The position numbers were made by a program, and so were the translations under genes. Positions 10,694 to 41,565 of a stretch of DNA of 64,000 bases are shown here, in pieces. The stretch is taken from positions 2,976,001 through 3,040,000 of the forward strand of contig NZ_KB907307.1 in assembly GCF_000381925.1 (NCBI RefSeq), given 5' to 3'. Numbering within the stretch: position 1 is the stretch's first letter; the number at the start of each line of letters is the position of its first letter. The notes below the pieces were generated by a model. It had not been told where the DNA came from. It saw nothing but the letters and a program-made list of their open reading frames with translations, and did not search any database. Origin of the DNA: Nocardia sp. BMG111209. GTDB lineage: Bacteria > Actinomycetota > Actinomycetes > Mycobacteriales > Mycobacteriaceae.

Positions 10694-10708
10694 GAGAGTA
10701 CGGTTCTC
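10694..10708. promoter_or_regulatory. GAGAG-N5-TTCTC operator candidate before the TauD-P450 operon
   Basis: GAGAGTACGGTTCTC lies 22 bp upstream of the TauD GTG start, where a repressor would block the promoter or transcription start. The same 15-bp design appears before several other catabolic operons in this window (27546, 30089, 31834, 37950, 41551). Confidence 0.6.
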
Positions 10709-10729
10709 ACATCCGAAAGGGAGATTCTT

Positions 10730-11533
10730 GTGATCGACACTACAGCACTGAGCCCCGCCTTAGGGGTGGAGGTGACCGGCGTCGACGTCCTCGACGACGC
10801 CGTGATCACCCGGTGCCTGGAGGCGCTGAAATGGCGCGGCGTGCTGCTCATCCGCGGCCTGCACCTCGACGACGAGGCACAAGTGGCGTTCAGCCGCAGG
10901 CTCGGCACCGTGCTGGCGCCGCACGGCCGCGAGGTCTTCACCGTCTCCCTGGATCCCGCCAAGACTCCCGCCGCCGATTATCTCCGGGGCACGCTCTGCT
11001 GGCATATCGACGACACGACCAACGACGTCCCGGCGAAGGCGACCATGCTCACCGCGCGCCACGTCGCGATGATCGGCGGCGGTACCGAATTCGCGAGCAC
11101 CTACGCCGCCTACGAGGCGATGACCGACGAGCAGAAGAAGCGCTACGACGGCCTGCGCGTGGTGCACAGCTTCGAGGCCGCGCAGCGGCTGGTCAATCCG
11201 GAGCCGACCGACGCGCAGCTGGCCGACTGGCGGCGGCTGCCCACCCACGAGACCGATCTGGTGTGGCAGCGCGCCGACGGCCGCCGCTCCCTGGTCATCG
11301 GCGCCACCGCCGACCACATCGTGGGCATGGAACCCGGCGAGAGCCGTGAACTGCTCGACGAACTCCTGGAGTGGACCACCCAGGAACGTTTCCGCTACAC
11401 CCACGACTGGACCGTGGGCGACGTCGTGATCTGGGACAACACCGGCATGCTGCACCGCGCGCTGCCGTACGACCCGAAATCCGAGCGGACCATGCATCGC
11501 ACGACCATCGCTGGAGAGGAAGCTTGGGCATGA
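10730..11533 (+). CDS. TauD/TfdA-family Fe(II)/2-oxoglutarate dioxygenase
   Basis: A 267-residue dioxygenase. The Fe-binding facial triad is visible: His and Asp in CWHIDD and the distal His in DNTGMLHRALPY, followed by the 2-oxoglutarate-binding Arg in TMHRTT. TauD-type enzymes couple 2-oxoglutarate decarboxylation to substrate hydroxylation. The start is GTG 10730. It opens a long plus-strand operon; its stop overlaps the next start as ATGA. A paralogue lies at 31911-32744 beside another P450, so TauD/P450 partnership recurs here. Substrate unknown. Confidence 0.9.
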   Translation: MIDTTALSPALGVEVTGVDVLDDAVITRCLEALKWRGVLLIRGLHLDDEAQVAFSRRLGTVLAPHGREVFTVSLDPAKTPAADYLRGTLCWHIDDTTNDVPAKATMLTARHVAMIGGGTEFASTYAAYEAMTDEQKKRYDGLRVVHSFEAAQRLVNPEPTDAQLADWRRLPTHETDLVWQRADGRRSLVIGATADHIVGMEPGESRELLDELLEWTTQERFRYTHDWTVGDVVIWDNTGMLHRALPYDPKSERTMHRTTIAGEEAWA

Positions 11534-12243
11534 GTGGGAAGACTGCCATCGTCACCGGCGGTGCGTCGGGTATCGGCGCCGGGATCGTCACGCGGCTGCG
11601 CGCCGACGGCTACAACGTCGCCATCCTGGACCTGAACCCTTCGGAGAGCGACGATTTCGCGTATCGCGCGGATGTGACCAACCCCGAGGAGATCGCCTCC
11701 GCGGTCACCTCGATCCGCAGCAAGCTGGGTCCGGTCACGGTGCTGGTCAACGGCGCCGGGCTGGAGAAGTACCGCCGCTTCCGCAACCTCAGCTTCGAGG
11801 AGTGGCAGCGGATCATCGACATCAACCTGCACGGCGTCTTCCACGGCGTGCAGGCCGTTCTGCCGGACATGCTCGAGGCCGGCTGGGGACGCATCGTCAA
11901 CATCTCGTCCTCCAGCACGCATTCCGGCCAGCCGTTCATGGCCGCCTATGTGGCGGCCAAGTCGGCGGTCAACGGCCTCACCAAATCCCTTGCGCTGGAA
12001 TTGGGTCCGCACGGGATCACGGTGAACGCGGTGCCGCCGGGGTTCATCGACACCCCGATGCTGCGGCGTTCGGAGGAGAAGGGCCTGCTCGGCGGCACCA
12101 TCGACGACCACATCGAGCGCACCCCGGTGCGCCGGGTCGGGCGCCCCTCCGACATCGCCGCCGCCGTCGCCTTCCTCGTCTCCGAGGACGCCGGGTACAT
12201 CACCGGGCAGATCCTCGGTGTCAACGGCGGTCGCAACACGTAA
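11530..12243 (+). CDS. Short-chain dehydrogenase/reductase (FabG-like)
   Basis: A 237-residue classical SDR. The Rossmann motif TGGASGIGAG is followed by NGAG, the catalytic Ser region NISSSST, and YVAAK with the Tyr-Lys pair. The C-terminal GYITGQILGVNGG is typical of 3-oxoacyl reductase-like SDRs. ATG 11530 overlaps the TauD stop by 4 nt, so translation is coupled. It probably oxidises or reduces a hydroxyl/keto group created by the dioxygenase or P450. NAD versus NADP preference was not judged. Confidence 0.92.
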   Translation: MSGKTAIVTGGASGIGAGIVTRLRADGYNVAILDLNPSESDDFAYRADVTNPEEIASAVTSIRSKLGPVTVLVNGAGLEKYRRFRNLSFEEWQRIIDINLHGVFHGVQAVLPDMLEAGWGRIVNISSSSTHSGQPFMAAYVAAKSAVNGLTKSLALELGPHGITVNAVPPGFIDTPMLRRSEEKGLLGGTIDDHIERTPVRRVGRPSDIAAAVAFLVSEDAGYITGQILGVNGGRNT

Positions 12244-12250
12244 CCCCTTA

Positions 12251-12274
12251 TCCCACCGAGCTTTTCGGGTGGGA
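12251..12274 (+). terminator. Hairpin between two SDR genes (weak terminator or processing stem)
   Basis: TCCCACC (12251-12257) pairs with GGTGGGA (12268-12274) around a short loop, in the 64-bp gap between coding regions. There is no U-tract, and the downstream gene has its own AAGGAAAGG site. It may be an attenuating or mRNA-stabilising stem rather than a full terminator. Confidence 0.35.
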
Positions 12275-12307
12275 CAGCCCAAGAGAAGAACAAGGAAAGG
12301 ACAAGCC

Positions 12308-13168
12308 GTGGGACGCGTTGAGGGCAAGGTCGCCTTCGTCACCGGCGCCGGGCGCGGTCAGGGCCGCAGCCATGCGGTCAAGCTGGCCGAAGAAGGCGCG
12401 GACATCATCGCCATCGACATCTGCAAGCAGATCGAGACGATCCAGTACCCGCTGTCGCGACCGGAGGATCTCGAGGAGACCGTGCGTCTCGTCGAGAAGA
12501 CCGGCCGCCGGATCCACGCCGAGCAGGCCGACGTCCGCGAGGCCGCCGCGCTGAAGGCCGTGCTGGAGCGCGGTGTCGCCGAGTTGGGGCACCTCGACAT
12601 CGTCGTCGCCCAGGCCGGCATCGCCGGTATGAAGGGCGAGCCGGCCTGGCAGGCCTGGTCGGACGTCATCGACACCAACCTGATCGGCGTCATCAACGCC
12701 GTGCAGGCCGCGCTGCCGTACCTGGACGAGGGCGCCTCCATCATCGCGACCGGCTCCACCGCCGCGCTGATGGACGCCTCCAACAAGCCGCAGGTCGGCA
12801 CCGATCCGGGCGGCGTCGCCTACATGGTCGCGAAGCGCCTGCTGTCGCAGTACATCAACGACATCGCCACGCATCTCGCCGCGCGCAAGATCCGGGCCAA
12901 TGTCGTGCATCCGACCAACTGCAACACCCCCATGTTGCAGAGCGAGCCGATGTACCAGTCGTTCCGGCCCGATCTGGAGCACCCGACCAAGGAGGACGCG
13001 ACCCCGGCCTTCTATGTGCAGCAGGCGATGCCGGTGCCGTGGATCGAGCCCGAGGAGATCAGCAACATGGTGCTGTTCCTCGCCTCCGACGAGTCCCGGT
13101 TCGTCACCGGTACCCAGCAGCGGGTCGACGCCGGTGGTTACCTCAAGTGGTACGACTACCACGTCTAG
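12308..13168 (+). CDS. Mycofactocin-coupled SDR family oxidoreductase
   Basis: A 286-residue SDR. The signature GKVAFVTGAGRGQGRSHAV and LAEEGADIIAIDIC marks the mycofactocin-coupled SDR family, which holds a non-exchanging NAD(H) and passes electrons to mycofactocin. The insert after the second strand (IETIQYPLSRPEDL) is the usual family feature, and GGVAYMVAKR carries the catalytic Tyr/Lys. The start is GTG 12308 behind AAGGAAAGG. It is likely an alcohol or hydroxy-acyl dehydrogenase within the P450 operon. The mycofactocin maturation genes are not in this window. Confidence 0.92.
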   Translation: MGRVEGKVAFVTGAGRGQGRSHAVKLAEEGADIIAIDICKQIETIQYPLSRPEDLEETVRLVEKTGRRIHAEQADVREAAALKAVLERGVAELGHLDIVVAQAGIAGMKGEPAWQAWSDVIDTNLIGVINAVQAALPYLDEGASIIATGSTAALMDASNKPQVGTDPGGVAYMVAKRLLSQYINDIATHLAARKIRANVVHPTNCNTPMLQSEPMYQSFRPDLEHPTKEDATPAFYVQQAMPVPWIEPEEISNMVLFLASDESRFVTGTQQRVDAGGYLKWYDYHV

Positions 13169-13177
13169 GAGAGATGG

Positions 13178-13369
13178 ATGAAGGTTCGTGTCGATCCGGA
13201 GCGCTGCCAGGGCCATACGCTCTGCGCCATGATCGCTCCGAAAGCGTTCCAGCTCAGTGAAATCGACGGTCATTCGACCCCGGTGAGCGAAGACGTGCCC
13301 GCCGATCAGGAGGATGCGGTCCGCGAGGCCGTGCACTCCTGCCCGGAACAGGCCATCTCCATCTACTGA
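13178..13369 (+). CDS. Single-cluster ferredoxin (3Fe-4S type), P450 redox partner
   Basis: A 63-residue ferredoxin beginning MKVRVDPERCQGHTLC. Cluster ligands are Cys10, Cys16 and Cys55, with His13 in the variable ligand position, as in actinobacterial P450-associated ferredoxins. Position 20, a Cys in the sister ferredoxin at 30260-30448, is Ala here (MIAPKAF), so a 3Fe-4S cluster is expected. It starts nine bases after the preceding stop and is followed by the P450 14 bases later, so it almost certainly delivers electrons to that enzyme. Confidence 0.92.
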   Translation: MKVRVDPERCQGHTLCAMIAPKAFQLSEIDGHSTPVSEDVPADQEDAVREAVHSCPEQAISIY

Positions 13370-13382
13370 GAGAGGAAAAGCA

Positions 13383-14753
13383 GTGACCGTGGAGAACGGC
13401 CCCGCCGTGACCGAGCAGGCCGCACACCGACAGCCGACGTTCCATTTCGATCGGCACACCGCGGAATATCGTGAGCAGTTCGGCGATATCACCCGCGACA
13501 TGCAGGAGAAGTGCCCCGTCGCGTGGTCGGAGACCTACGACGGGCACTGGGTGGCCGCGGGCAACCGCGAGGTGTTCGAACTCGCCCGTTGCCCCCACGT
13601 CTCCAACGAGAACGATTTCGACAACACCCGCCGCGGGTACAAGGGCATCTCGATTCCGACCCCGGCGCGTGCCCGTGGCGTGCGCGGCGGGATCCTCGAG
13701 ATGGACGGGTCGGAGCACCGCGAGCTGCGCGGTGCGCTGAACCCGTATCTCTCACCGGCAGCGGTGAATCGGTGGATTCCGTTCGTGGACGAGGTCGTTC
13801 GCGCCGCTCTCGACGAGAAGATCGAGAGCGGCCGGATCGACTTCGTCGACGAACTGGCGAACATCGTTCCGGCGGTGCTCACCCTGGCGATGCTCGGCAT
13901 CCCGCTGAAGAAGTGGGTCGTCTACAACGAGCCGGTGCACGCCGCCGTGTACACCCCGCCGGACTCGCCCGATATCGATCGGGTCACCGCCCTGCACGCC
14001 GAGATGGGCCGGGATCTGCTCACCAATTACTTCGAGGTGAAGCAGAATCCGCGTCCGGGCATGATCAAGGCCGTCGCCCAGTCCACCATGAACGGCGAGC
14101 CCCTCCCCGACATGGAGGCCCTGGGCATGCTGGGCCTGATCATCGGTGGTGGTTTCGACACCACCACCGCGCTGACGGCCCACTCCCTGGAGTACCTGGG
14201 CCAGAATCCGGACAGCCGCGAATTGCTCAGCAAGGAACGGGATCTGATTCTGGACTCGGCCACCGAGGAGTTCCTCCGCTACTACACGCCCGCCCCCGGC
14301 GACGGTCGAACCTTCGACGCCGACGTCGAGGTCGCGGGCAAGGAGTTCAAGGAGGGCGAGCGGCTGTGGCTGTCGTGGGCCATGGCGAACCGGGATCCCT
14401 CGATCTTCGAGAACCCGGACGAGATCGATCTGGAGCGGAAGGGTAACCGCCACTACAGCTTCGGTCTCGGCGTCCATCGCTGCATCGGGTCGAACATGGC
14501 CCGCATGGTGTTCAAGCGGATGCTGCTGGCCGTGCTGGACCGGATGCCCGACTACGTCTGCGACGAGGAGGCGACGGTGCACTACGACACCATCGGCGTC
14601 ATCCAGGGCATGCGGCACCTGCCGGCCACGTTCACCCCGGGACCGAGAATCGGTGCCGGACTGGACGAGACGCTGGAGAAGCTCCAGCAGATCTGCGACG
14701 AGCAGCAGCTCGCCGAGCCGGTGACCGTCCGCAAGGACCAGGCACAGATCTGA
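13383..14753 (+). CDS. Cytochrome P450
   Basis: A 456-residue P450. The I-helix oxygen-binding stretch is GGGFDTTTALTAH, the K-helix ExxR lies in EEFLRYY, and the heme-binding loop FGLGVHRCIGSNMAR carries the thiolate Cys near residue 366. It has no membrane anchor. GTG 13383 follows GAGAGG. Electrons should come from the ferredoxin immediately upstream. It is highly similar over its whole length to the P450 at 41631-42995, including an identical C-terminal VTVRKDQAQI, so one arose by duplication. Substrate unknown. Confidence 0.95.
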   Translation: MTVENGPAVTEQAAHRQPTFHFDRHTAEYREQFGDITRDMQEKCPVAWSETYDGHWVAAGNREVFELARCPHVSNENDFDNTRRGYKGISIPTPARARGVRGGILEMDGSEHRELRGALNPYLSPAAVNRWIPFVDEVVRAALDEKIESGRIDFVDELANIVPAVLTLAMLGIPLKKWVVYNEPVHAAVYTPPDSPDIDRVTALHAEMGRDLLTNYFEVKQNPRPGMIKAVAQSTMNGEPLPDMEALGMLGLIIGGGFDTTTALTAHSLEYLGQNPDSRELLSKERDLILDSATEEFLRYYTPAPGDGRTFDADVEVAGKEFKEGERLWLSWAMANRDPSIFENPDEIDLERKGNRHYSFGLGVHRCIGSNMARMVFKRMLLAVLDRMPDYVCDEEATVHYDTIGVIQGMRHLPATFTPGPRIGAGLDETLEKLQQICDEQQLAEPVTVRKDQAQI

Positions 14754-14760
14754 TCCGCCC

Positions 14761-14799
14761 GCCCCGCTGTCGCCGCGTATCCCGTTGCGGCAGCGGGGC
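14761..14799 (+). terminator. GC-rich hairpin after P450
   Basis: The arm GCCCCGCTGTCGCCGC (14761-14776) pairs with GCGGCAGCGGGGC (14787-14799) with a small bulge, directly after the P450 stop. No U-tract follows, and the next gene begins 27 bp later with its own ribosome site. It could be a partial terminator that reduces expression of the downstream half of the operon. Confidence 0.45.
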
Positions 14800-14825
14800 G
14801 ATCCGTGCACACGAGAGGAGACGAC

Positions 14826-17544: not shown

Positions 17545-17548
17545 GGCA

Positions 17549-22970: not shown

Positions 22971-22971
22971 G

Positions 22972-26708: not shown

Positions 26709-26712
26709 CGCG

Positions 26713-27545: not shown

Positions 27546-27560
27546 GAGAATCTTGCTCTC
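27546..27560. promoter_or_regulatory. GAGAA-N5-CTCTC operator candidate in divergent SDR/hydratase promoter
   Basis: GAGAATCTTGCTCTC is a copy of the 15-bp palindrome found elsewhere in the window, placed between two divergent genes. A weaker related sequence (AAGAATGCAGTTCT) follows at 27567-27580. Position suits control of both transcripts. Confidence 0.6.
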
Positions 27561-27647
27561 GTCGTCAAGAATGCAGTTCTGGACACCGATGAGACCGCCG
27601 GGCATGATCGCTGTGACATCCGAATCGCATTCTCCGCGGAGGTGGCC

Positions 27648-28448
27648 GTGTCCGAACCCCTCGTCCTGGTCGATACCGCCGATCGCATCGCGACCGTGAC
27701 GCTCAACCGTCCCGGGGCCCGCAATGCGCTCAGTCGCGCACTGTCCCGGCAACTCTGGGACGCGGTGGCCGCCGCCGACCGTGACCCCGACGTGGACGTG
27801 GTGATCCTGACCGGCGCCGATCCGGCGTTCTGCGCGGGCGTCGATCTGGCCGAGGCGGCCGCCGGGCGGCCGCCGCAGCCACCCCGGCCGGCCGGTACCG
27901 GACCGGAGCGCACCAGCAACGGCCTCTACCGCTTCCTGCCGGTGACCGAGAAGCCGATCATCGGCGCGATCAACGGCGCGGCGGTCACCGGCGGCCTGGA
28001 GGTGGCATTGCAGTGCACCTTCCTGGTGGCCTCCGAGCGGGCCCGGTTCGCCGACACCCACGCGCGCGTCGGTGTCATGCCCGGCGGCGGGATGACCGTG
28101 CTGCTCGCCCGCACGGTCGGCCTGCGCCGCGCCCTGGAGCTGTCGCTGACCGGCAACTTCCTCACCGCCGACGAGGCGCTGCGGCTGGGCCTGGTGAATC
28201 ATGTGGTGCCGCACGAGGATCTGCTCCCGTTCACCCGCCGGCTGGCCGCCGACATCGCGGGCAACGACGGCACCGCCGTGCGGCTGCTGTTGCAGCACTA
28301 CCGGCGCCTGGCCAATACCGCCACCCTCGACGAGGCGCATCTGCTGGAGGGGATCCTCGCCGAAACCTGGGCTCCCGGCACCGATCTCGTCGCCGAGCGG
28401 CGGGCCGGGGTGACCGCGCGCGGCCGCGCCCAGACCGGCCGCGGCTGA
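27648..28448 (+). CDS. Enoyl-CoA hydratase/isomerase family protein
   Basis: A 266-residue crotonase-fold protein: VTLNRPGARNALS, DPAFCAGVDL (first oxyanion-hole block), INGAAVTGGLEVALQC (second) and RVGVMPGGGMTVLLAR. The Glu found at the PE position of true hydratases (FgqPE) is not present (FADTHARVG), so hydration may not be its reaction. The GTG 27648 start follows GCGGAGGTGG. It belongs to the acyl-CoA block; the ligase at 28488 is convergent with it. Confidence 0.87.
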   Translation: MSEPLVLVDTADRIATVTLNRPGARNALSRALSRQLWDAVAAADRDPDVDVVILTGADPAFCAGVDLAEAAAGRPPQPPRPAGTGPERTSNGLYRFLPVTEKPIIGAINGAAVTGGLEVALQCTFLVASERARFADTHARVGVMPGGGMTVLLARTVGLRRALELSLTGNFLTADEALRLGLVNHVVPHEDLLPFTRRLAADIAGNDGTAVRLLLQHYRRLANTATLDEAHLLEGILAETWAPGTDLVAERRAGVTARGRAQTGRG

Positions 28449-28487: not shown

Positions 28488-30041
28488 TCAGATGACCAGG
28501 GAATCGTGTCCCTCCCAATACTGTTCGCGCAGACGGCGTTTGTACAGCTTCCCGCTGGGGTCGCGGGGCAGTTCGGCGACGAAGTCGACCGTGCGCGGGC
28601 ATTTGTAGGCGGCCAGTTCGGCCCGGCAGTACGTGATCAGCTCGCCCGCCAGTTCCGGTCCGGCCGCATCCGGATCCATCAGCTGCACAACGGCTTTCAC
28701 CTGCTCGCCCATCTCCGGATCGGGTACGCCGATCACCGCGACGTCGGCCACGGCCGGATGCCCGGCCAGCAGATTCTCCGTCTCCTGCGGGTAGATGTTC
28801 ACGCCGCCGGAGATGATCATGTGGGCCTGGCGGTCGGTCAGGTACAGGTACCCGTCCGCGTCGAGATAGCCCATGTCGCCGAGGGTGCGCCAGCCCTTGG
28901 GATGCGCGGCCGCGGCGGTTTTCGCCGGATCGTGGTGATATTCGAACGGCCGCCCGCCGTGGAAGTAGACGATGCCCACCTCGCCGGTGCCCAGTTCCTC
29001 GCCGTCCTCGCCGACGATGTGGCACTCCTGCATCGGCCGCCCGACCGAACCCGGATGGGCCAGCCATTCCGCGGCGGTGATCTGGGTGTGCCCGACATCC
29101 TCGGTGCCCGAATAGTATTCGCTGATCTTCGGGCCCCACCACTGCATCATCTGCCGCTTCACCGCCACCGGGCACGGCGCCGCGGAATGGGTGACGTCGA
29201 CCAGGCTGGAGATGTCGTACCGGTCCCGCACCTCCGGCGGCAGCTTCAGCAGCCGGATGAACATGGTCGGCACCACCTGGGCGTGCGTCACCCGGTACTG
29301 CTCGACCAGTTCCAGGAACCGTTGCGGCTCGAAGCGTTCCATCACGATCACGGTGCCGCCGATGCGCTGCCAGGACATCGAGAACACCAGCGGCGCACCG
29401 TGATACAGCGGCGCCGGGGACAGGTACACGGCGCCCTCGGCCGCGCCGGTGATGGCCAGCCCGCGCGCGATCTGCACCGGGCCCGCGCTCGGATCGCCGA
29501 GCGGGGTGGCGGGCAGCGGCTTGCGAATCCCCTTGGGCCGCCCCGTCGTTCCCGACGAGTACAACATCTCCCGGCCCTCGCACTCGCCGTCGAGCGGCCC
29601 GCCGGGCTGTTCGGCGAGCAGGTCCTCGTACCGTTCGAAACCGAGGTCGCCGCCCGCGGACACCCGCACACCGAGTTTCGACAGGTCCAGGCCCACGATC
29701 ACATCGGCCATGGACGCACTGCTGATCAGGGCGGTGGCCCCGCAGTCGTCCAGGATGTACTGCACCTCACCGGCCCGCAGATGCCGGTTCACCGCCGTGT
29801 AGTAGAGCCCGGAACGCTGTGCCGCCCAGGTGATCTCGAGAAATGCGCGATTGTTCTCCATGACGATCGCGATGTGATCGCCGACGGTCAGCCCGCGTGC
29901 CCGCAGCGCCTGCGCGAAGCGGACGGAGCGGTCCTCCAGCTGGGCGTAGGTCACCGTCTCGCCACCGAAGCCCATGACGATCGCCGGGCGGTCCGGATCC
30001 TTCTCGGCGAATCGGGCCGGGGTCAGTTCCGCGGCACTCAT
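28488..30041 (-). CDS. Acyl-CoA synthetase (ANL superfamily)
   Basis: A 517-residue AMP-forming acyl-CoA ligase. The P-loop-like MLYSSGTTGRPKG, the YYSGTEDVGHT motif, GWRTLGDMGYLDADGYLYLTDR, and the C-terminal catalytic Lys in SGKLYKRRLR are all visible. It activates a carboxylic acid with ATP and CoA, consistent with entry of the substrate into beta-oxidation. The palindrome at 30089-30103 lies 48 bp upstream of its ATG. The 209-bp gap 30042-30259 otherwise shows nothing recognisable. Confidence 0.94.
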   Translation of the reverse strand: MSAAELTPARFAEKDPDRPAIVMGFGGETVTYAQLEDRSVRFAQALRARGLTVGDHIAIVMENNRAFLEITWAAQRSGLYYTAVNRHLRAGEVQYILDDCGATALISSASMADVIVGLDLSKLGVRVSAGGDLGFERYEDLLAEQPGGPLDGECEGREMLYSSGTTGRPKGIRKPLPATPLGDPSAGPVQIARGLAITGAAEGAVYLSPAPLYHGAPLVFSMSWQRIGGTVIVMERFEPQRFLELVEQYRVTHAQVVPTMFIRLLKLPPEVRDRYDISSLVDVTHSAAPCPVAVKRQMMQWWGPKISEYYSGTEDVGHTQITAAEWLAHPGSVGRPMQECHIVGEDGEELGTGEVGIVYFHGGRPFEYHHDPAKTAAAAHPKGWRTLGDMGYLDADGYLYLTDRQAHMIISGGVNIYPQETENLLAGHPAVADVAVIGVPDPEMGEQVKAVVQLMDPDAAGPELAGELITYCRAELAAYKCPRTVDFVAELPRDPSGKLYKRRLREQYWEGHDSLVI

Positions 30042-30088
30042 CGCACCGCTCCGGCACCGGTCATCGAAGAATGGAACTGTACAACGAA

Positions 30089-30103
30089 GAGAACTTTATT
30101 CTT
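30089..30103. promoter_or_regulatory. GAGAA-N5-TTCTT operator candidate before acyl-CoA synthetase
   Basis: GAGAACTTTATTCTT differs from the shared palindrome only at the last base and sits 48 bp upstream of the ligase start, the same distance as the 27546 copy from its SDR. Confidence 0.5.
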
Positions 30104-30259: not shown

Positions 30260-30448
30260 TCAGCTCAGGTCGATCGCCCGCTCCGGGCAGGCGTCGGCGG
30301 CATTGCGCGCCGCCGCCTCGAGCTCCGCCGGCACGGCCGGATTCGGCACCTCGGCGTACCCGTCGGCACTCAGTACGAACACATCGGGGCAGATCGTCGT
30401 GCACACACCGTGTCCACGGCAGCGATCCCAATCAACGGAAGCCTTCAT
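30260..30448 (-). CDS. Single-cluster ferredoxin with an extra cysteine
   Basis: A 62-residue ferredoxin beginning MKASVDWDRCRGHGVC. Cluster Cys10, Cys16 and Cys54 are accompanied by His13 and an additional Cys20 (CTTICPDVF), where the paralogue at 13178 has Ala. A 3Fe-4S cluster is expected, but a fourth Cys could allow 4Fe-4S. Its ATG overlaps the P450 stop as TGATG, so it is the dedicated redox partner of that P450. Confidence 0.92.
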   Translation of the reverse strand: MKASVDWDRCRGHGVCTTICPDVFVLSADGYAEVPNPAVPAELEAAARNAADACPERAIDLS

Positions 30449-31761
30449 CAGGCCGGCACCTCCACCAGATCGAATTCCATGTGCAAGGACATCAGGCCGC
30501 GCAGGATGAACGTCGGCAGATAATCGAACCGCCGCGCACCGGCCGGGCCGTGGACCGACTCGACGATGCGGAGGCCGGTGGTGCGATCGAGGATTCGCTC
30601 GAGCGCCACCCGGGCCTCGGCGCGCGCCAGCGGGGCGCCCGGGCAGGTGTGCGGGCCGCGGCCGAAGGCGATGTGCGAGCGGGCATTCGAGCGGGCCGGG
30701 TCGAACCGGGTCGGATCCTCGAATTTGCGCGGGTCGCGGTTGGCGGCGCCGTTGCTCACCATCACGGTGGTCCCGGACGGCAGATCCACGCCGCCGACCG
30801 TGGTCGGCACCTTCGACAACCGGAAGTCGCCCTTGACCGGGCTCTCGGTGCGCAGCACCTCCTCCAGGAAGTTGCCGATCCGGCTGCGATCCCCGCGCAG
30901 CCAGGTCTCCAGCTCCGGATCGTCGGCGAGCAGCTTCAGCGCGTTGCTCACCAACCGGACCGTGGTCTCCTGACCGGCCGAGAACAGGTTCACCGCGACC
31001 CGGACCACATCCAGCACCGTCGGTTCCGAGCCGTCCGGGAAGGTCGCGGTGGCCATGCTGGTCAGCACGTCGCCGGTCGGCTCGCGACGACGGTCCTCGA
31101 CGTAGGCGGAGAACTTGCCGTAGAGGAACTCGATCGGGTTGTGCGCCATCTGCTCGCCCTCGGTGCTGCCGAGGCCGCCGCCACCCTCGTGGCCGCCGCG
31201 CTGCAACGCGTGGAGGAACTCCTCCTGGTCGGGCTCGGGCACTCCCAGCAGGTCGGCGATCACGTAGAGGGTGAACGGGCCGATGAAGTCGGCGATGACG
31301 TCGCCGGATACGACGCCGTTCGCGTCGGGCACCAGGAAGGTGTCGAGGACGCGGTCGGCCAGCGACCACATCGCGTCCTCGTTCTCCTTCAACCGTTTCG
31401 GGGTGATCAGCCGCATGAGCAGCGCCCGATGGTCGGTGTGCACCGGCGGATCGAGGCAGGGCAGCTGATCGGACAGCGGCAGGCCGTCCCGATACTGCGC
31501 GATGATCTCGTCGACGTCGTCCCGGCCCTCGACCGGCACCGGCAGGCCCGGGAAGGGGCCGGTCACCGAGATGCACGACGAGAAGCGCTCCACGTCGTTG
31601 AGCACCTCGAGCGCCTCGTCGTAGCCCGTCACCATGGCGACGTTGTGATGCGGCTCCCGGGTGACCGGGCACCGGGAGCGCAACGCGTCGAGATACGGGT
31701 ACGGATCCGTGACCAGTCCGCTGTCGGTGAAATAGTTCAGCGACTCGATGTCGTCCGTCAC
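30448..31761 (-). CDS. Cytochrome P450 (distinct from the twin pair)
   Basis: A 437-residue P450. The I-helix is LFSAGQETTVRLV, the ExxR lies in EEVLRTESPV, and the heme loop FGRGPHTCPGAPLAR places the thiolate Cys near residue 371. It is only distantly related to the P450s at 13383 and 41631. GTG 31761 follows AAAGGGAGTC; the open frame upstream is not P450-like. It is cotranscribed with the ferredoxin. The palindrome at 31834-31848 is 73 bp upstream. Confidence 0.95.
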   Translation of the reverse strand: MTDDIESLNYFTDSGLVTDPYPYLDALRSRCPVTREPHHNVAMVTGYDEALEVLNDVERFSSCISVTGPFPGLPVPVEGRDDVDEIIAQYRDGLPLSDQLPCLDPPVHTDHRALLMRLITPKRLKENEDAMWSLADRVLDTFLVPDANGVVSGDVIADFIGPFTLYVIADLLGVPEPDQEEFLHALQRGGHEGGGGLGSTEGEQMAHNPIEFLYGKFSAYVEDRRREPTGDVLTSMATATFPDGSEPTVLDVVRVAVNLFSAGQETTVRLVSNALKLLADDPELETWLRGDRSRIGNFLEEVLRTESPVKGDFRLSKVPTTVGGVDLPSGTTVMVSNGAANRDPRKFEDPTRFDPARSNARSHIAFGRGPHTCPGAPLARAEARVALERILDRTTGLRIVESVHGPAGARRFDYLPTFILRGLMSLHMEFDLVEVPA

Positions 31762-31833: not shown

Positions 31834-31848
31834 GAGAATGCCACTCTC
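31834..31848. promoter_or_regulatory. GAGAA-N5-CTCTC operator candidate before P450-ferredoxin operon
   Basis: GAGAATGCCACTCTC lies in the 149-bp gap between TauD and P450, upstream of the P450 start. It is another copy of the recurrent 15-bp palindrome. Confidence 0.6.
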
Positions 31849-31910
31849 AATATAAGACGTGCCGATTCTCACAGTTGCGGCCGGAGGCGTCAACCTCGGG
31901 ACGGTCGCGG

Positions 31911-32744: not shown

Positions 32745-32838
32745 GGCCGACCCCTTCGATCCGGCAGCCCCCGGGAGCGCGTCACTCCTCGGGTGCTGAA
32801 CTGGTGCTCAAACAATTGGCGTGCTTATGCTTAACACC

Positions 32839-33483
32839 GTGAGTGAAGAGAGGTCAAGAGGCCACCGATCCGGGGCCGCGCGCGCCACGCGGCGCGTCGG
32901 GGCCGAGGATTCCGCCACCCGGCTGGCGATCCTCGACGCGACGGCGAAGATCATGCGCGAGGAGGGCAGCGCGGCGGCCACCTCCCGCCGCATCGCGGCC
33001 GTCGCCGGGGTGAAGCCGCCGCTGGTGCACTACTACTTCCCGACCATGGACGATCTGTACCTCGCGGTGTTCCGGCGCGGCGCCGAGGCGTACGTGGAGT
33101 TGCAGCGCCGGGCGATCTTCTCCGATCGCCCGCTGCGCGCGCTGTGGGATCTCAGCCGCGAACCGCACGGCACCCGGCTGCAACTGGAGTTCATGGCCCT
33201 GGCCAATCAGCGGCCCGCGATCCGCGCCGAACTCGCCGCGTACACCGATCGGTTCCGGGAGATCCAGGTGACGGCCCTGACCTTCATCGCCCGCGAACGC
33301 GGCCTGGACCTGGGTGAATTCCCGCCGGTGGTGATATCGCTGCTGATCGCGAGCCTGTCCGGGGCGCTGGCCACCGAGAGCGCGCTGGGCATCCATCGCG
33401 GGCACGCGGAGATGCTCGCCTTCGTCGAATCCCATCTGGACCGGTTCGAGGCCGCCGCCGCGGATCACCCGGCCGCCGGCTGA
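32839..33483 (+). CDS. TetR-family regulator
   Basis: A 214-residue TetR repressor. The helix-turn-helix is SAAATSRRIAAVAGVKPPLVHYYFPTMDD without its last residues, followed by a ligand-binding helical domain. The DNA-binding domain is nearly identical to the second TetR module of the next gene, so they share ancestry and perhaps operators. GTG 32839 is chosen; ATG 32827 and GTG 32821 are in frame too. A TATGCT element just upstream could make this transcript leaderless. It is divergent from TauD and a candidate controller of the recurrent 15-bp palindrome. Confidence 0.85.
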   Translation: MSEERSRGHRSGAARATRRVGAEDSATRLAILDATAKIMREEGSAAATSRRIAAVAGVKPPLVHYYFPTMDDLYLAVFRRGAEAYVELQRRAIFSDRPLRALWDLSREPHGTRLQLEFMALANQRPAIRAELAAYTDRFREIQVTALTFIARERGLDLGEFPPVVISLLIASLSGALATESALGIHRGHAEMLAFVESHLDRFEAAAADHPAAG

Positions 33484-33609: not shown

Positions 33610-35367
33610 ATGACGCCGAGCCGCACCTCTCCCGCCTCGGGCGACAACGCCGATTCCCGCACCCGGCGCGGTGGACGGCCGACACGCGCCCAGGCCACCG
33701 AGCTGGACCGGACGCTGCGCCGGGCGGCGTTGCAACTGTTCCTGGATCAGGGTTACGACGGCACCTCGATGGACGCGATCGCCCGCGCGGCCGGCACCAC
33801 CAAGGCGTCGCTGTACACGCGATTCCCGAGCAAGGAGGCGATGTTCCGCTCGGTGCTGGAGTGGGCGGTGCAGCGCGCCGACCGACCGGCCCCCGCCTAC
33901 ACCGCCTCCGGCGATCTCACCACCGCCCTGACCGAGATCGCCACCGCCGCGTGGGATCGGGCCGTACACCCCGATCTGATCAAACTCCGCCGGATCGCGG
34001 CGGCCCAGGCGGAACGGCATCCGGACCTGGCGCGGCAGGCCACGGCGTGGCCGTCGCCGAATCCGGTCGCGGAACTGCTGCGCCACCACGCCCGCACCGG
34101 CACGATCGTCGCCGACGACCCGGACCTGCTGGCCGACCACTTCCTGGCCATGGTCACCGCCCCCGCCTGGTCCACGGTCTTCGGCCATCCCCGTCCCGGC
34201 GCCGCCGACGCGGAACGGACCATCGGGAGCGCGGTCGCACTGTTCGTCCGCGGCCTGCGGTCCTTCGCCGTCCCGGCGTCGGCCGCCGCATCGGCCCGGG
34301 TCGGCACACCCGTCCAGGCCGCCGCATCGGCCCAGGCGGCCGAATCGGTTCAGCTCGGCACATCGGTCCAGGCCGGCGCGTCGGCCCAGCTCGCCACACC
34401 GGCCCAGGCCGGCGCATCGGCCCAGCTCGCCACACCGGGAGCTGCGTCGGCCGAGACATACAGCGCGCCGGCCGCATCCACGGCCGCGGCCTCGACGGCC
34501 GCCGACGCCGTATCCCCCGCTGCGGCTTCGGCATTCACCGTCGCCACGGCAGATTCCTTGTCGGAGAACCCGACCCAGCCCGCTGCCGTCCCGCCCCCAT
34601 CGGCTTCCGCTGGGGCGAGCACACTTTCACCGGCCGGAACCACGGGCAACGGCTCCGGCCACTCGACTTCCGCAGGGACAGCCCAGCCGCCGACCGGGAC
34701 CGTCGGCACCGCCGCGGACCAGGCCGCCTCGCTCCGGGCCACGACCGGCGCACCGGCACAATCCCTTCCGCCGGACATCGATCCGATGCCGCGCCGCCGC
34801 AACGGGAGCGGTGAGCCGAGTGCCCGCGACCAACTGCTCAACGCCACCGCCCAGGTGATGGTCACCGAGGGGTACGCGGCGGCGACCTCGCGCCGCGTCG
34901 CCGCCGTGGCGGGCGTGAAACCCGCACTCGTGCACTACTACTTCCCCACCATGGACGACCTGTTCCTGGCGGTGTTCCGCCGCGGCGCCCAGCGTCACCT
35001 GGACCGGGAGCGCCATGCCCTCGACGCCGGCCGGGCACGGTCGATGTGGGATCTGCACAACACCAATCGCGACACCGCCCTGGTACTGGAGTTCATGGCA
35101 CTGGCCAACCACCGCAAGGAGATCCGCTCCGAGGTGGCGCTCTACACCGAGATCTCGCGCGAGAACCAGCGCACCGCCCTGGGCCGCCTGCTACCGCACG
35201 GCCTGCGCCCGGCCACCATGTCGCCGCCCGTGCTGGGCTTCATCCTGGCCGCCGTCACCCGCCTGCTGGTGTCCGAGCAGATGCTCGGTATCACCGCCGG
35301 CCACAGCGACACGATCACCTACTTCACCGCACTGCTCGCCGATCCGCTCCGCCGCTCCCCCGCCTGA
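33610..35367 (+). CDS. Tandem TetR-TetR fusion regulator
   Basis: A 585-residue chain with two complete TetR repressors. Module 1 (about 28-217) has HTH MDAIARAAGTTKASLYTRF and its own ligand domain. Residues ~218-393 form an Ala/Ser/Thr/Pro-rich linker with 12-residue repeats. Module 2 (about 394-585) has HTH SRRVAAVAGVKPALVHYYF and closely matches the neighbouring TetR at 32839. TetR proteins normally are ~200 residues and bind as dimers; two DNA-binding heads in one chain are unusual. No stop or frameshift separates the modules. The function of the fusion is unknown. Confidence 0.88.
   Translation: MTPSRTSPASGDNADSRTRRGGRPTRAQATELDRTLRRAALQLFLDQGYDGTSMDAIARAAGTTKASLYTRFPSKEAMFRSVLEWAVQRADRPAPAYTASGDLTTALTEIATAAWDRAVHPDLIKLRRIAAAQAERHPDLARQATAWPSPNPVAELLRHHARTGTIVADDPDLLADHFLAMVTAPAWSTVFGHPRPGAADAERTIGSAVALFVRGLRSFAVPASAAASARVGTPVQAAASAQAAESVQLGTSVQAGASAQLATPAQAGASAQLATPGAASAETYSAPAASTAAASTAADAVSPAAASAFTVATADSLSENPTQPAAVPPPSASAGASTLSPAGTTGNGSGHSTSAGTAQPPTGTVGTAADQAASLRATTGAPAQSLPPDIDPMPRRRNGSGEPSARDQLLNATAQVMVTEGYAAATSRRVAAVAGVKPALVHYYFPTMDDLFLAVFRRGAQRHLDRERHALDAGRARSMWDLHNTNRDTALVLEFMALANHRKEIRSEVALYTEISRENQRTALGRLLPHGLRPATMSPPVLGFILAAVTRLLVSEQMLGITAGHSDTITYFTALLADPLRRSPA
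34297..34440 (+). repeat. 36-bp in-frame tandem repeat in TetR-TetR linker
   Basis: Units at 34351-34386 and 34387-34422, with a partial third from 34423 and a diverged copy at 34297-34332, all begin or resemble CAGCTCGCCACACCGG. Each encodes 12 residues of the type QLATPAQAGASA. The 36-bp period keeps the frame, so linker length can change by slippage without breaking the protein. Confidence 0.8.
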
Positions 35368-36613: not shown

Positions 36614-36692
36614 TGCGCATTCGCCACCGGCGCGCCGGAACCGCTGCGCCGCAACCACATTCCCGCCGATCGAGAAAGGCCGGTGTGCCGGC

Positions 36693-37913: not shown

Positions 37914-37924
37914 CCGGCCGACCG

Positions 37925-37956
37925 GCCTCTCGCCGCACCACGCGGCGGCGAGAGGC
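37925..37956 (+). terminator. Terminator hairpin after the ACAD pair
   Basis: A perfect 12-bp stem GCCTCTCGCCGC/GCGGCGAGAGGC with an 8-nt loop begins 12 bases after the ACAD stop and is followed by TTGTTCTCC. It is a convincing stem for transcription termination in high-GC DNA. Confidence 0.75.
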
Positions 37957-37964
37957 TTGTTCTC
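37950..37964. promoter_or_regulatory. GAGAG-N5-TTCTC site before the LLM gene (weaker candidate)
   Basis: GAGAGGCTTGTTCTC fits the shared palindrome and precedes the LLM-SDR operon by 108 bp. Its left half is also the right arm of the terminator hairpin, so the match could be partly fortuitous. A second inverted repeat CCATTC-N4-GAATGG overlaps its end at 37964-37979. Confidence 0.4.
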
Positions 37965-38071
37965 CATTCGAAAGAATGGTAGATGCAATAGAGGCTAAAC
38001 AACGTTCTCGCCCAGGCGTGACGCCCGCCCACCGGACCGGCGCGGCCCCGGCATCGAGCAATGAGGTGACG

Positions 38072-38977
38072 ATGCGTTTCTTCTTCCATTACCCCGAGAC
38101 GGCCGGGTACGAGGGCGACGTACTGGATGCCGGTCCGCTGCGCGACGTGGCGGTCACGGTGGAACGCTCCGGATTCGACGGCTTCTCGCTCAGTGAGCAT
38201 CCGATCCCGGGTGCACGCTGGCTGGCCTCCGGCGGACATCAGACCCTCGACCCGTTCGTGTCGCTGGGCTTCGTGGCCGCCGCGACCGAGCGGCTGAAGC
38301 TGCTCACCTATCTGGCCGTCGCCCCCTACCGCAACCCGTTCCTGCTCGCGAAATCGGCTGCGACACTGGACAAGCTGTCCGGTGGCCGCGCGATCGTCGG
38401 CATCGGCACCGGGTACCAGAAGAGCGAATTCCACGCGCTGGGAGTCGATTTCGACGAACGCAACGCGCTGTTCGAGGAGACCCTCGACGTCCTGCCCCTG
38501 CACTGGAGCGGTGAGCCGTTCAGCTACCAGGGCCGGCACTTCAGCGCCCGCGACGTGGTGGCCCGGCCGCGGCCGGTGCAGAGCCCCATCCCGATCTGGA
38601 TCGGCGGCAACTCGAAGCTGACCCAGCGCCGGGTCGGCCAGCGCGCGCAGGGCTGGATCCCGATGAGCGGCGGCGGCGAACTGAACTCCACCGCGCGCAC
38701 CCCGGAACTCGGCGACTTCGACGAGCTGGCCGGGAAGATCGCCGATATCCGTTCCGCCGCAAGGGAAGCCGGGCGCACCGAACATATCGACGTGGTCTAC
38801 TCCTACAACGACACCAGCATCCTGAACCCGACCGCGGACGCGGACCGGCACCGTGAGGTGTTCGGGCATCTGGAGAAGATCGGCATCGACTGGATCACGG
38901 TGTCCAGCCGCACCAGCGAGGCTTCCGCGACCTTCGATTTCATCGAGGGCTTCGGCGCCGCCTACCTGCGGGGCTGA
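38072..38977 (+). CDS. LLM-class flavin/F420-dependent oxidoreductase
   Basis: A 301-residue LLM-class TIM barrel. SGFDGFSLSEHPIPG, LLTYLAVAPYRNPFLLAKSAATLDKLSGGR, VGIGTGYQKSEFHALGVDF and IPIWIGGNSKLTQRR-type blocks are diagnostic (each cited in part). Such enzymes use FMN or F420 for oxidation or Baeyer-Villiger type chemistry. ATG 38072 follows AATGAGGTGACG. It is five bases from the SDR that follows, so they form an operon like the LLM-SDR pair at 25704-27498. Confidence 0.85.
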   Translation: MRFFFHYPETAGYEGDVLDAGPLRDVAVTVERSGFDGFSLSEHPIPGARWLASGGHQTLDPFVSLGFVAAATERLKLLTYLAVAPYRNPFLLAKSAATLDKLSGGRAIVGIGTGYQKSEFHALGVDFDERNALFEETLDVLPLHWSGEPFSYQGRHFSARDVVARPRPVQSPIPIWIGGNSKLTQRRVGQRAQGWIPMSGGGELNSTARTPELGDFDELAGKIADIRSAAREAGRTEHIDVVYSYNDTSILNPTADADRHREVFGHLEKIGIDWITVSSRTSEASATFDFIEGFGAAYLRG

Positions 38978-38982
38978 CGGCG

Positions 38983-39852
38983 ATGGGATGGTTCGAGGAG
39001 CGCGGCGGGCTCGACGGCACCGTCGCCGTGATCACCGGCGGCGCAGGCGGTCTCGGTCAGGCGATCGTCACGGATCTGGCCGCCAACGGGGTCCGCACCG
39101 CGGTCCTCGACATCGACGGCGAGGCGATCGAGCAGCTGCGGGCCCGCCTCGCCGAGGACGGCCACGACGCCCTGCTGATCCAGGGCGACGTCCGCGATCC
39201 GGACACCCTGACCGGCCTGTTCACCGCGGTCGACGAGCGCTGGGGCCGGCTGGACACACTGGTGAACGTGGTGGGCGGCACCTTCCGGGCGTCGTTCACC
39301 GACACCAGCCCGAACGCGTGGAACGCCCTGCTGCGGATCAACCTGCTGCACGTGTTCCAGGCGTGCGCACTGGCCGTGCCGCGGATGCGCGCCGGCGGCC
39401 GCGGCGGCAGCATCGTCAACATCACGACGATCGAAGCACACCGCGCCGCACCGGGTTACGCGGTCTACTCCGCGGCCAAGGCCGCGGTGGAACAGTTCTC
39501 GCGCACCCTGGCCGTCGAGGTCGCCCCCGACAACATCCGGATCAACAACGTGGCACCGGATTTCGTGCCCACCCCGAACATGGACAAGATGGCCGGCGGC
39601 AACGGCCACTCCAGCGATCGGGCGATGTACGACCCGGAGGGCGTCGCGGTGGCCATCCCGATGGCCCGCCCCGGCCAGGTCACCGACATCTCGAACTGCG
39701 TGGTGTTCCTGGCCTCCCGCCTGTCGACCTACCTGACCGGCACCACCCTCCACCCCGACGGCGGCACCTACGCCTCCGCCGGCTGGTTCAACTGGCCCGG
39801 CGACGGCTGGGCCAACCACGCTCCCCTGCACCTGATCCGCGGCGAGCACTGA
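38983..39852 (+). CDS. Short-chain dehydrogenase/reductase
   Basis: A 289-residue SDR. TGGAGGLGQAI binds the cofactor, VYSAAKAAVEQF carries the Tyr-Lys pair, and NITTIEAH is the Ser/Thr region. The usual NNAG block is altered to NVVGGTF. A C-terminal extension rich in Trp and Gly (GWFNWPGDGWANHA) goes beyond the core. It is cotranscribed with the LLM oxidoreductase. The exact substrate is unknown. Confidence 0.9.
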   Translation: MGWFEERGGLDGTVAVITGGAGGLGQAIVTDLAANGVRTAVLDIDGEAIEQLRARLAEDGHDALLIQGDVRDPDTLTGLFTAVDERWGRLDTLVNVVGGTFRASFTDTSPNAWNALLRINLLHVFQACALAVPRMRAGGRGGSIVNITTIEAHRAAPGYAVYSAAKAAVEQFSRTLAVEVAPDNIRINNVAPDFVPTPNMDKMAGGNGHSSDRAMYDPEGVAVAIPMARPGQVTDISNCVVFLASRLSTYLTGTTLHPDGGTYASAGWFNWPGDGWANHAPLHLIRGEH

Positions 39853-39910
39853 GGACGAGCCCGTCTCGTGGCGCTGCCGCGGCGGGCGACCTCCTGAACC
39901 GTTCGGCGGC

Positions 39911-40579
39911 TCAGTGCGGTAGGGGCCAGGACAGGCTGTCGTGGACGTCGAGGTCGGCGATGGCGGCGAGGGCGGCCGGGGATGCGGGGGCGGTGAGGAA
40001 GCCGACGAGGCCGTCCAGGACGTCGCGGACGTGGACCTCGAAGGGCAGGACCGTGCGGCCCGCCGCGGCGGCCTGTTCGTTGAGCGCGGCGGCGTGGACG
40101 GCGAAGGACAGGGCCTGGGCGATGCGGTGGGTGCGCAGGGGTTCGGGGAGGTCGGGCAGGTCGGCGCGGACGCGGTTCCGGAATTTCTCGTTCTCGTCGC
40201 GGTATTGGGTGGAGACGCGGTCGAAGACGTCGCGGTGGCCGTGCTGCTGGAGCATCGCGATGAAACTCAGGTAATTGCTGCCCGCCTCGGCGCCCTGTTC
40301 CAGGATGGGCCGCACATGACATTCGATGCGGGTGGCCAGATCGGCCGGGCGGCGTTCGGCGGTCAATTCCGCGCGGCGCTGCCGCAGCCGGGGCTCGCGA
40401 TATTCGAATATCGCCTGGATCAGTTGATCCTTGGAGCCGAAATGGTATTGCACCGCGGAATTGTTGGCATTTCCGGCGGCGGCGCCGATCTGCCGCAGGG
40501 AGACTCCCTCGATCCCGTGCCGGGCGTAGAGCCGTTCGGCCGTGACGATGATCGCCTCCCGGGCCGGAAGCAGCGCCAT
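39911..40579 (-). CDS. TetR-family regulator
   Basis: A 222-residue TetR protein. The HTH VSLRQIGAAAGNANNSAVQYHFGSKD (in part) is near residues 26-50, with a helical C-terminal domain. GAGGAGGGGAG precedes ATG 40579. It is divergent from the CMD-domain gene; the palindrome AAGACA-AC-TGTCTT lies between them, so it likely represses that gene and itself. It is not closely related to the other two TetR genes here. Confidence 0.9.
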   Translation of the reverse strand: MALLPAREAIIVTAERLYARHGIEGVSLRQIGAAAGNANNSAVQYHFGSKDQLIQAIFEYREPRLRQRRAELTAERRPADLATRIECHVRPILEQGAEAGSNYLSFIAMLQQHGHRDVFDRVSTQYRDENEKFRNRVRADLPDLPEPLRTHRIAQALSFAVHAAALNEQAAAAGRTVLPFEVHVRDVLDGLVGFLTAPASPAALAAIADLDVHDSLSWPLPH

Positions 40580-40652
40580 CTCCCCTCCTCTGCGGGCCGC
40601 CTGATACCGGGAAGCATCCTAACAGGGTCGCGAAAGAGACCCTGGATTCGTA

Positions 40653-40666
40653 AAGACAACTGTCTT
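40653..40666. promoter_or_regulatory. Palindromic operator candidate in the TetR/CMD divergent promoter
   Basis: AAGACA-AC-TGTCTT is a perfect inverted repeat, extended imperfectly by T/A bases on each side, located 74 bp from the TetR start and 43 bp from the CMD-protein start. Typical placement for a TetR-controlled divergent promoter. Confidence 0.6.
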
Positions 40667-40708
40667 AAGGTGGTGACGGACAGCCGCAGCGCAACGAAGG
40701 AGCGAACC

Positions 40709-41470
40709 GTGCCGGACCGTGCCCAGCAGATCTATCGCGAGGTCATGACCATCGAGCCGCCCGAGCCGGCGACCCCCTTCGAGGCGGCGACCTTCGAATT
40801 CGTCTTCGGGCAGGTATGGTCGCGGCCCGGCCTGTCCCGCCGGGAGCGGCGCTGGGTCACGCTCACCTGCGTCGCGGCCGCGGATTCGCCGCAGCCGATC
40901 GCCGATCACGTCTACGCCGCCCTGCGCAGCGGCGATATCACCCTGCCGGAAATGCTGGAGTTCGTGCTGCATTTCGCGGTCTACTGCGGCTGGCCGAAGG
41001 CCTCGCATCTGGAGGGTGAGGTCCGCGCGCAGTGGGCCCGTCTGCACACCGAGCGCGGCGAGACGGCCCCGCCGTGGCCGCGCATCGACAACGCCGAACT
41101 CGGCCCGGACGACTGGGAGCGGCGAATGGAGCTGGGCGCGAAGGAGTTCGCGGAGGTGAACCTGATCTCCGCACCGCCGGCGAACACCCCGTACCAGCAC
41201 GCCGGCATCCTGAACTTCGTGTTCGGGCACGTCTGGCAGCGTCCGGGCCTGACCCGCCGCGACCGCCGGCTCATCACGATTCCCGCGGTGGCCCTGGACG
41301 ATTCGCCGATGCCGCTGCGCGCGCACGTCACCTCGGCGGTGGAGTCCGGCGACGTCACCCCGGTGGAACTCGACGAGATCGTCCTGCAGTTCTCGGCCTA
41401 CTACGGCTTCGCCAAGGGCCAGGCGCTCCAGGACGCCGCGGACCTGGCCCGCGCGAAGGCGCCGGTGTAG
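40709..41470 (+). CDS. Tandem carboxymuconolactone-decarboxylase (CMD) domain protein
   Basis: A 253-residue protein with two CMD/AhpD-like domains. Repeat 1 has VWSRPGLSRRERRWVTLTCVA and EMLEFVLHFAVYCGWPKA; repeat 2 has VWQRPGLTRRDRRLITIPAVA and ELDEIVLQFSAYYGFAKG. Neither has the CxxC of AhpD, so it is closer to the PcaC-like decarboxylase group than to peroxidase-linked AhpD. Start GTG 40709 follows GAAGGAGCGAACC. A lactone or decarboxylation reaction is inferred from family only. Confidence 0.82.
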   Translation: MPDRAQQIYREVMTIEPPEPATPFEAATFEFVFGQVWSRPGLSRRERRWVTLTCVAAADSPQPIADHVYAALRSGDITLPEMLEFVLHFAVYCGWPKASHLEGEVRAQWARLHTERGETAPPWPRIDNAELGPDDWERRMELGAKEFAEVNLISAPPANTPYQHAGILNFVFGHVWQRPGLTRRDRRLITIPAVALDDSPMPLRAHVTSAVESGDVTPVELDEIVLQFSAYYGFAKGQALQDAADLARAKAPV

Positions 41471-41550
41471 GGCGGCGCCGGAGGCGGTGGCCACCGCCGA
41501 GCGAATTCGGTTGATCGAGGAAACCGAAAACGCTCCGGGGGAGCTGGGGC

Positions 41551-41565
41551 GAGAGTAGCGTTCTC
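41551..41565. promoter_or_regulatory. GAGAG-N5-TTCTC operator candidate before the second P450 twin
   Basis: GAGAGTAGCGTTCTC is the closest match to the site before the TauD-P450 operon (GAGAGTACGGTTCTC), differing at two bases in the spacer. TTCTCAT then repeats at 41573. It lies 66 bp upstream of the P450 ATG. Confidence 0.62.

Follow-up and report, generated by a model that had tools for sequence, protein, structure and literature searches.

A palindrome repeated before catabolic genes of Nocardia as the probable operator of an autoregulated TetR-type repressor family

A short palindrome recurs at the promoters of oxidative and acyl-CoA genes in a 64-kb stretch of DNA from Nocardia sp. BMG111209 (C1:2976001-3040000 of the 9.14-Mb genome; "the window" hereafter means this whole stretch). 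Comparisons of sequence within and between genomes indicate that it is probably the operator of one family of autoregulated TetR-type repressors, here called P0004, controlling a large catabolic regulon for the breakdown of fats and ring compounds in Nocardia, many mycobacteria and related genera, and that the repressor gene most likely lies outside the window. The strain is a close relative of N. aurantia. An earlier note on this DNA had placed the palindrome at six sites, 22-108 bp upstream of gene starts, had proposed that these unite two blocks of window genes in one catabolic regulon, and had named two TetR genes of the window as the candidate regulator. The sites and their positions are borne out, and the single regulon is supported and spans the whole genome; the choice of regulator is not supported.

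The pattern GAGARNNNNNYTCTY occurs without mismatch at exactly those six places and nowhere else in the window. Counted by strand there are 11 matches, against a mean of 0.25 and a maximum of 2 in 100 shuffles, and a control with swapped half-sites gives 0 matches in the window. Both strands are matched at five of the six sites; the site at 30089 is matched on one strand, the other carrying one mismatch. Once a mismatch is allowed, the window count hardly exceeds chance (22 versus 12.8, with 5 of 100 shuffles as high). Three of the six sites have the variant form GAGAGT...RTTCTC. The site at 37950, formerly regarded as less sure, matches as well as the others; N. aurantia has the identical sequence, and in Nocardia sp. 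alder85J the last base is lost. None of the six falls within a predicted gene, and all stand 21-107 bp before predicted starts, as given by a codon-based gene prediction made in this analysis. The zone up to 130 bp upstream of such starts, a limit picked after the sites had been seen, covers about 6% of the window between 5 and 47 kb.

The genome-wide scan proposed in the earlier note finds the motif well above background and mostly before gene starts. There are 41 forward and 41 reverse matches, compared with 4 and 7 for the reversed pattern, falling at 46 distinct places of which 36 match on both strands. Thirty-seven of these places lie outside predicted genes and no more than 250 bp upstream of a predicted start; seven lie inside a predicted gene (one of them also just before the next start), and two do neither. 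The best core of the palindrome is GAGAATNNNATTCTC, with 12 matches in this genome and 0 for its reversed control. It could be argued that chance or base composition yields such palindromes, as the motif is short and seven of the 46 places are inside genes. A chance origin is already contradicted by the shuffle, reversed-pattern and swapped-half controls and by conservation across genera, and its probability is close to nil.

Oxidative and acyl-CoA genes follow many of the sites. Pfam families around the window sites are TauD, SDR, ferredoxin, P450, LLM, enoyl-CoA hydratase, AMP-binding ligase, acyl-CoA dehydrogenase and CMD. Outside the window, a scan of 39 nearby proteins returned acyl-CoA ligases, acyl-CoA dehydrogenases, SDRs, crotonases, amidohydrolases, alpha/beta hydrolases, a thioesterase, reductases and three TetRs; a sigma factor, an AAA ATPase, a LuxR-type regulator and a PHP-domain protein among the 39 are apparently unrelated, and one has no family. 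The NCBIfam matches shown for acyl-CoA dehydrogenases, ligases and P450s all stay under their cut-offs, and no pathway is assigned by these family models. The nearest solved P450s are CYP150A6 and P450cin. CYP150A5 of M. marinum is reported to hydroxylate beta-ionone (PMC6237146), an activity that only hints at terpenoids. Included in the 46 are the GAGAGC-N3-GCTCTC places at L005:1501 and L036:2001-2050 (twice in the latter, 35 bp apart). The genes behind them are F420 quinone reductase-like and bestrophin-like/DUF2568, and these places probably belong to another operator and regulator. The regulon extends past the window end, where two sites at a distance of 4.5-6.7 kb (L017:2001 and L017:4129, at C1:3044545 and 3046673) precede a TetR gene, P0003, and separate a glyoxalase-like gene from an acyl-CoA dehydrogenase gene.

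Three TetR genes stand behind sites in this genome, and one of them, P0004, has sites both before and behind it. P0004 is encoded at C1:3217734-3218384, about 178 kb beyond the window end. It is a single TetR of 217 amino acids with an N-terminal TetR_N helix-turn-helix (HTH; PF00440, E 2.5e-07, 30.8 bits versus a cut-off of 24). A short inverted repeat near the regulator's own promoter is a criterion for a TetR operator, and this is what the P0004 loci display. Among the best 80 of 385 named relatives, drawn from Nocardia, Mycobacterium, Mycolicibacterium, Rhodococcus, Aldersonia and one metagenome bin labelled Acidobacteria, a site lies upstream of the gene in all 80, with its first base 126-202 bp before the gene (136-138 bp in 71 of them). 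In a set of Nocardia loci, 18 of 20 have the upstream site and 18 of 20 also have a site behind the gene. The promoter consensus from 78 distinct but related sequences is approximately GAGAATANTATTCTC-N7-GAAAGTTACAATCTC. Its two copies carry 1.83 and 1.61 bits per column, compared with 0.37, 0.42 and 0.72 for left flank, spacer and right flank.

The HTH of P0004 is nearly invariant across 25 relatives, including P0005, a paralog on contig C2 that is 65-66% identical and has its own site. Six distant paralogs whose recognition helices differ lack any upstream match of 10 or more of 12 letters. The N. aurantia protein, 97% identical, is modelled with nine helices at a mean predicted local distance difference test score (pLDDT) of 76.7, with 57-73 in the HTH region. 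Its first helix, residues 9-44, falls in a conserved basic stretch and is modelled at low confidence (block means 55-71). A first helix of this extent is long for a TetR, and any role for it is a guess. Among 120 relatives listed of 5454, names are those of a generic regulator or are absent.

Regulator and core sites occur together across genomes. P0004 relatives were counted at E <= 1e-20 in 148 Nocardia genomes and at E <= 1e-60 in 118 genomes of the genus of M. interjectum. The core motif is present in 74 of the 148 Nocardia genomes, its reversed control in 0, and P0004 in 75 (in G002 as a 59-residue piece only). All 62 Nocardia with at least three core sites have P0004, and none of the 73 without P0004 reaches three (Fisher test, 4e-29, kinship ignored). 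In the mycobacterial sample, at least three core sites are found in 90 of 95 P0004-positive genomes versus 0 of 23 negative ones, such that all 90 genomes with this many have P0004; the reversed control matches in one genome. The best mycobacterial copy is 76-84% identical to P0004 in those 95 of 118 genomes. The variant GAGAGT...RTTCTC behaves likewise, with a mean of 3.5 per P0004-positive and 0.36 per P0004-negative Nocardia genome (reversed control, 16 across all 148), and at least 26 other Nocardia genomes, every one of them P0004-positive, share the exact 15-mer of the 10694 site.

The regulator proposed in the earlier note was the TetR at 32827 (P0002) or the TetR-TetR fusion at 33610-35367 (P0001), acting locally on the sites of this island. 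Both are indeed encoded amid the sites, and the 32827 family, matched ten times in this genome at E <= 1e-20, is confined to P0004-positive Nocardia (58 of 58, each with at least four core sites) and is found in 58 of the 62 Nocardia with at least three core sites. This co-occurrence is at least partly explained by linkage, with 10 of 29 family members in ten genomes lying within 7 kb of a core site where 0.53 would be expected. However, no site is present in the upstream region of either window gene, and a site lies within 350 bp upstream in 1 of 20 loci of the 32827 family, as opposed to 18 of 20 for the P0004 type. Moreover, the family was not found (E <= 1e-20) in four Nocardia with 6-10 core sites, which still have 3, 5, 7 and 3 sites of the window type GAGAGT...RTTCTC. 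The 32827 TetR shows hardly any similarity to P0004 (BLASTP E 0.047), and a different specificity is therefore likely. Control of the sites by these window genes is thus improbable, and the 32827-type TetRs are probably local regulators within clusters under P0004. The fusion itself consists of an AefR-like TetR, an Ala/Ser-rich linker of about 170 residues and a TetR of the 32827 family; N. aurantia and Nocardia sp. alder85J have counterparts of it.

A different division of labour would have several paralogous TetRs, of the P0004, P0005 and P0003 types, reading overlapping subsets of the motif; they would share the regulon, and one of the paralogs might be in charge of the window subset. Sites lie 72-73 bp upstream of the starts of both P0005 and P0003, and the HTH of P0005 is nearly identical to that of P0004; P0003, just past the window, is a distant relative (32% identity over 96 residues). 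In addition, the window sites often have GAGAGT/GTTCTC instead of GAGAAT/ATTCTC. Against this, at the thresholds used, the number of copies does not exceed two in 62 of 75 Nocardia and 95 of 95 mycobacteria with P0004, and M. interjectum has one P0004 copy yet both types of site. A shared regulon of this kind is unlikely, if less so than control from within the window.

Many sites have a weaker second copy about two helical turns away. In the window these lie at 10715, 27567 and 41572, with weaker ones beside the remaining three sites. At offsets of 21 and 22 bp around the 46 places of this genome, copies above the 98% score occur in 9 and 11 of the 92 flanks; offsets of 19 and 20 bp give 5 and 6, all others 0-3. 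A sample of 62 strict sites from other genomes, reduced to 38 by removing alike flanks, gave the same offsets: 8 of 12 letters are reached in 14 of the 76 flanks at 22 bp, in 7 at 21 bp and in 0-4 at other offsets. By site, a second copy at 21/22 bp is present in 21 of 38, at 26/27 bp in 4, and at 31/32 and 41/42 bp in 0. In alignments of related genomes most of both copies is kept and the flanks partly drift, some sets being too close to tell. A -10 promoter element as the source of the second copy was set aside as a matter of judgement because the outer half TCTC is also conserved at the predicted P0004 promoter. The sites, their second copies and the genes around them are as follows.

8999..10507, minus strand: aldehyde dehydrogenase, divergent from the 10694 site, then CoA-transferase III (7774-9006)
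10694..10708: primary palindrome GAGAGTACGGTTCTC, 21 bp before the TauD start
10715..10729: secondary copy GAAAGGGAGATTCTT, 21 bp downstream of the 10694 site, overlapping the likely ribosome-binding site
10730..14753, plus strand: TauD, SDR, SDR, 4Fe-4S ferredoxin and P450 genes, a presumed operon
25704..27498, minus strand: SDR and LLM oxidoreductase, one side of the 27546 promoter
27546..27560: primary palindrome between the divergent SDR and enoyl-CoA hydratase genes, 47 and 87 bp from the predicted starts
27567..27581: secondary copy AAGAATGCAGTTCTG, at +21 of the 27546 site
27648..28448, plus strand: enoyl-CoA hydratase, other side of the 27546 promoter
28488..30041, minus strand: acyl-CoA ligase (AMP-binding)
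30067..30081: weak second copy, offset -22 from the 30089 site
30089..30103: primary site GAGAACTTTATTCTT, 47 bp before the acyl-CoA ligase
30448..31761, minus strand: P450 whose closest match among solved structures is CYP150A6 (E 1.3e-137)
31834..31848: primary palindrome; the CYP150A-like P450 starts 72 bp away
31856..31870: weak second copy, offset +22 from the 31834 site
32827..33483, plus strand: TetR P0002, the earlier candidate; it probably acts locally and does not read the motif
33610..35367, plus strand: P0001, two TetR units fused through a long Ala/Ser-rich linker; its upstream region has no site
37950..37964: primary palindrome; the LLM oxidoreductase starts 107 bp away
37972..37986: secondary copy (AAGAAT...), half-conserved and of low score, at +22 of the 37950 site
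38072..41470, plus strand: LLM, SDR and double CMD-domain genes, downstream of the 37950 site
41551..41565: primary palindrome; the P450 at 41631 starts 65 bp away
41572..41586: secondary copy GCAAGTGTGGTTCTC, at +21 of the 41551 site
41631..42995, plus strand: P450, twin of that at 13383-14753; the best-match gene in G108 is common to both (94 and 73% identity)

Each of the six window sites has a counterpart in at least one other Nocardia genome, and those of the 10694 and 31834 promoters also have counterparts in M. interjectum. The second copy at 10715 is conserved at 22 bp in G133, G137 and G009 and is similar in M. interjectum; the 27546 site is altered in G108 and G102 and still matches the pattern. 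In the window the TauD gene sits between the 10694 site and the SDR gene, which directly follows the site in G133, G137, G009 and M. interjectum. Further along the window, between 47927 and 63551 and outside the present finding, are large minus-strand reading frames of up to 1320 amino acids.

Conservation across genera was followed in a 115-kb stretch of M. interjectum, chosen around the core sites of that genome, one further core site lying far from it. The stretch has nine places, seven of which precede the best matches (62-83% identity) of site-bearing Nocardia genes: an amidohydrolase, the aldehyde dehydrogenase and SDR-SDR-P450 genes of window 8999-14753, an acyl-CoA dehydrogenase beside P0004, a CYP150A-like P450, a CMD protein, P0004 itself and a ligase/reductase pair. 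The site at the aldehyde dehydrogenase and SDR-SDR-P450 genes is GAGAGTAAGGTTCTC, a single change from the window 10694 15-mer, and its second copy is present; behind this divergent site, the best matches of the window aldehyde dehydrogenase and CoA-transferase III are 74 and 76% identical. A site-bearing P450 of M. interjectum is 64% identical to the CYP150A-like P450 of the window. The two places without a counterpart stand before a P450 only 32% identical and between two genes without a match.

By analogy with the TetR family in general, a likely mechanism can be proposed. A P0004 dimer would bind the strong palindrome GAGAATNNNATTCTC, or in the window its variants GAGAGT...RTTCTC, and at many promoters a second dimer would occupy the weaker copy two helical turns away. 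Bound near the promoter, the repressor would block transcription, that of its own gene included, until a pathway intermediate, perhaps an acyl-CoA or an acid, releases it, at which point P450s, dioxygenases, dehydrogenases, ligases and beta-oxidation genes would come on together. A wider proposal, to which we attach somewhat less than an even chance, is that P0004 is a master repressor on the scale of KstR, not yet described, whose bipartite operator takes up two dimers at a distance of two helical turns, the long conserved basic first helix perhaps holding them together. It would preside over the breakdown of a cyclic lipid or terpenoid-like compound by a pathway widespread among environmental mycobacteria, Nocardia and Rhodococcus.

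Several observations weigh against P0004 as the one reader of these sites. Fewer than three core sites are present in 13 of 75 P0004-positive Nocardia and in 5 of 95 mycobacteria, and the co-occurrence counts are uncorrected for kinship. Six Nocardia (G050, G058, G078, G087, G154 and G163) have P0004 and zero core sites. In four of these the best match upstream of P0004 lies at 121-123 bp with only 9-10 of 12 letters, and in the other two at 98 bp (11 letters) and at 56 bp (9); a match of at least 9 letters turns up in about 9% of random 300-bp stretches. The promoter site looks altered in several of the six, as if the regulon had decayed around its regulator. Two of the 20 Nocardia P0004 loci have no upstream site. 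The swapped-half control gives 93 matches in the 80 named loci, against 242 for the motif, and 3 against 9 in the M. interjectum stretch, and some of the genome-wide matches, seven of 46 being inside genes, are due to chance. As to the second copy, the 19-20 bp offset is also raised in this genome, and 17 of the 38 foreign sites have no clear second copy. Finally, paralogs with the same recognition helix, such as P0005, could share the sites.

The proposed pairing of P0004 with the palindrome supplies a testable regulator and operator for many catabolic genes, including P450s near CYP150A6 and P450cin, TauD and LLM oxygenases and acyl-CoA dehydrogenases, and the sites help to delimit the degradation pathway across genera. 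Because the regulator is so well conserved (76-84% identity in 95 of 118 mycobacteria), one binding assay and one deletion would aid the annotation of many genomes. Likewise, the two-turn spacing of the second copy makes cooperative binding directly testable.

In the mainly openly accessible literature on Nocardia TetR regulons, Mce3R, KstR3, tandem operators and CYPs, no description of this motif or regulator was found, and a P0004-type repressor is apparently undescribed so far. Mce3R of M. tuberculosis is a double TetR, like the product of window 33610-35367, and regulates genes tied to lipid metabolism. As described in PMC11667970, it binds two asymmetric 25-bp sites 53 bp apart; here, in contrast, the sites are palindromic (five of six fit both strands), none is at the fusion gene, and P0004 is a single TetR. 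KstR3 of M. neoaurum is a TetR repressor of a steroid side-chain (HBC) operon with an aldolase and a DUF35-type gene; the passages on it in PMC10398937 mention four upregulated clustered genes only, without an operator. BkaR, EthR and other mycobacterial TetRs with predicted motifs have palindromic or complex operators near divergent genes (PMC4482099), and a relation of the present palindrome to one of those motifs is possible.

The nearest known system is the KstR regulon of Mycobacterium and Rhodococcus, in which an autoregulated TetR likewise acts through a short palindrome on lipid and redox genes alike. The KstR box is TAGAAC-N2-GTTCTA, with 16-31 predicted intergenic sites at lipid and redox genes reported in PMC1995591. 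The present sites could be taken for boxes of this cholesterol regulon or close variants, since the half-sites AGAA/TTCT are common to both and the kinds of genes similar. But the spacer here is 3, not 2; a full KstR box lies within 45 bp at 0 of the 46 places, with none in the window, and the AACnnGTT core at 2 of 46. Among 16 solved-structure chains matched by P0004, none is named KstR (several carry generic names, and no direct comparison with KstR was made). That these are KstR boxes is thus extremely improbable. The two systems would rather be alike in design and distinct in their operators: TnnAACnnGTTnnA with a spacer of 2 for KstR, and here GAGAATNNNATTCTC with a spacer of 3, a second copy at 21-22 bp and a patchy distribution in Nocardia.

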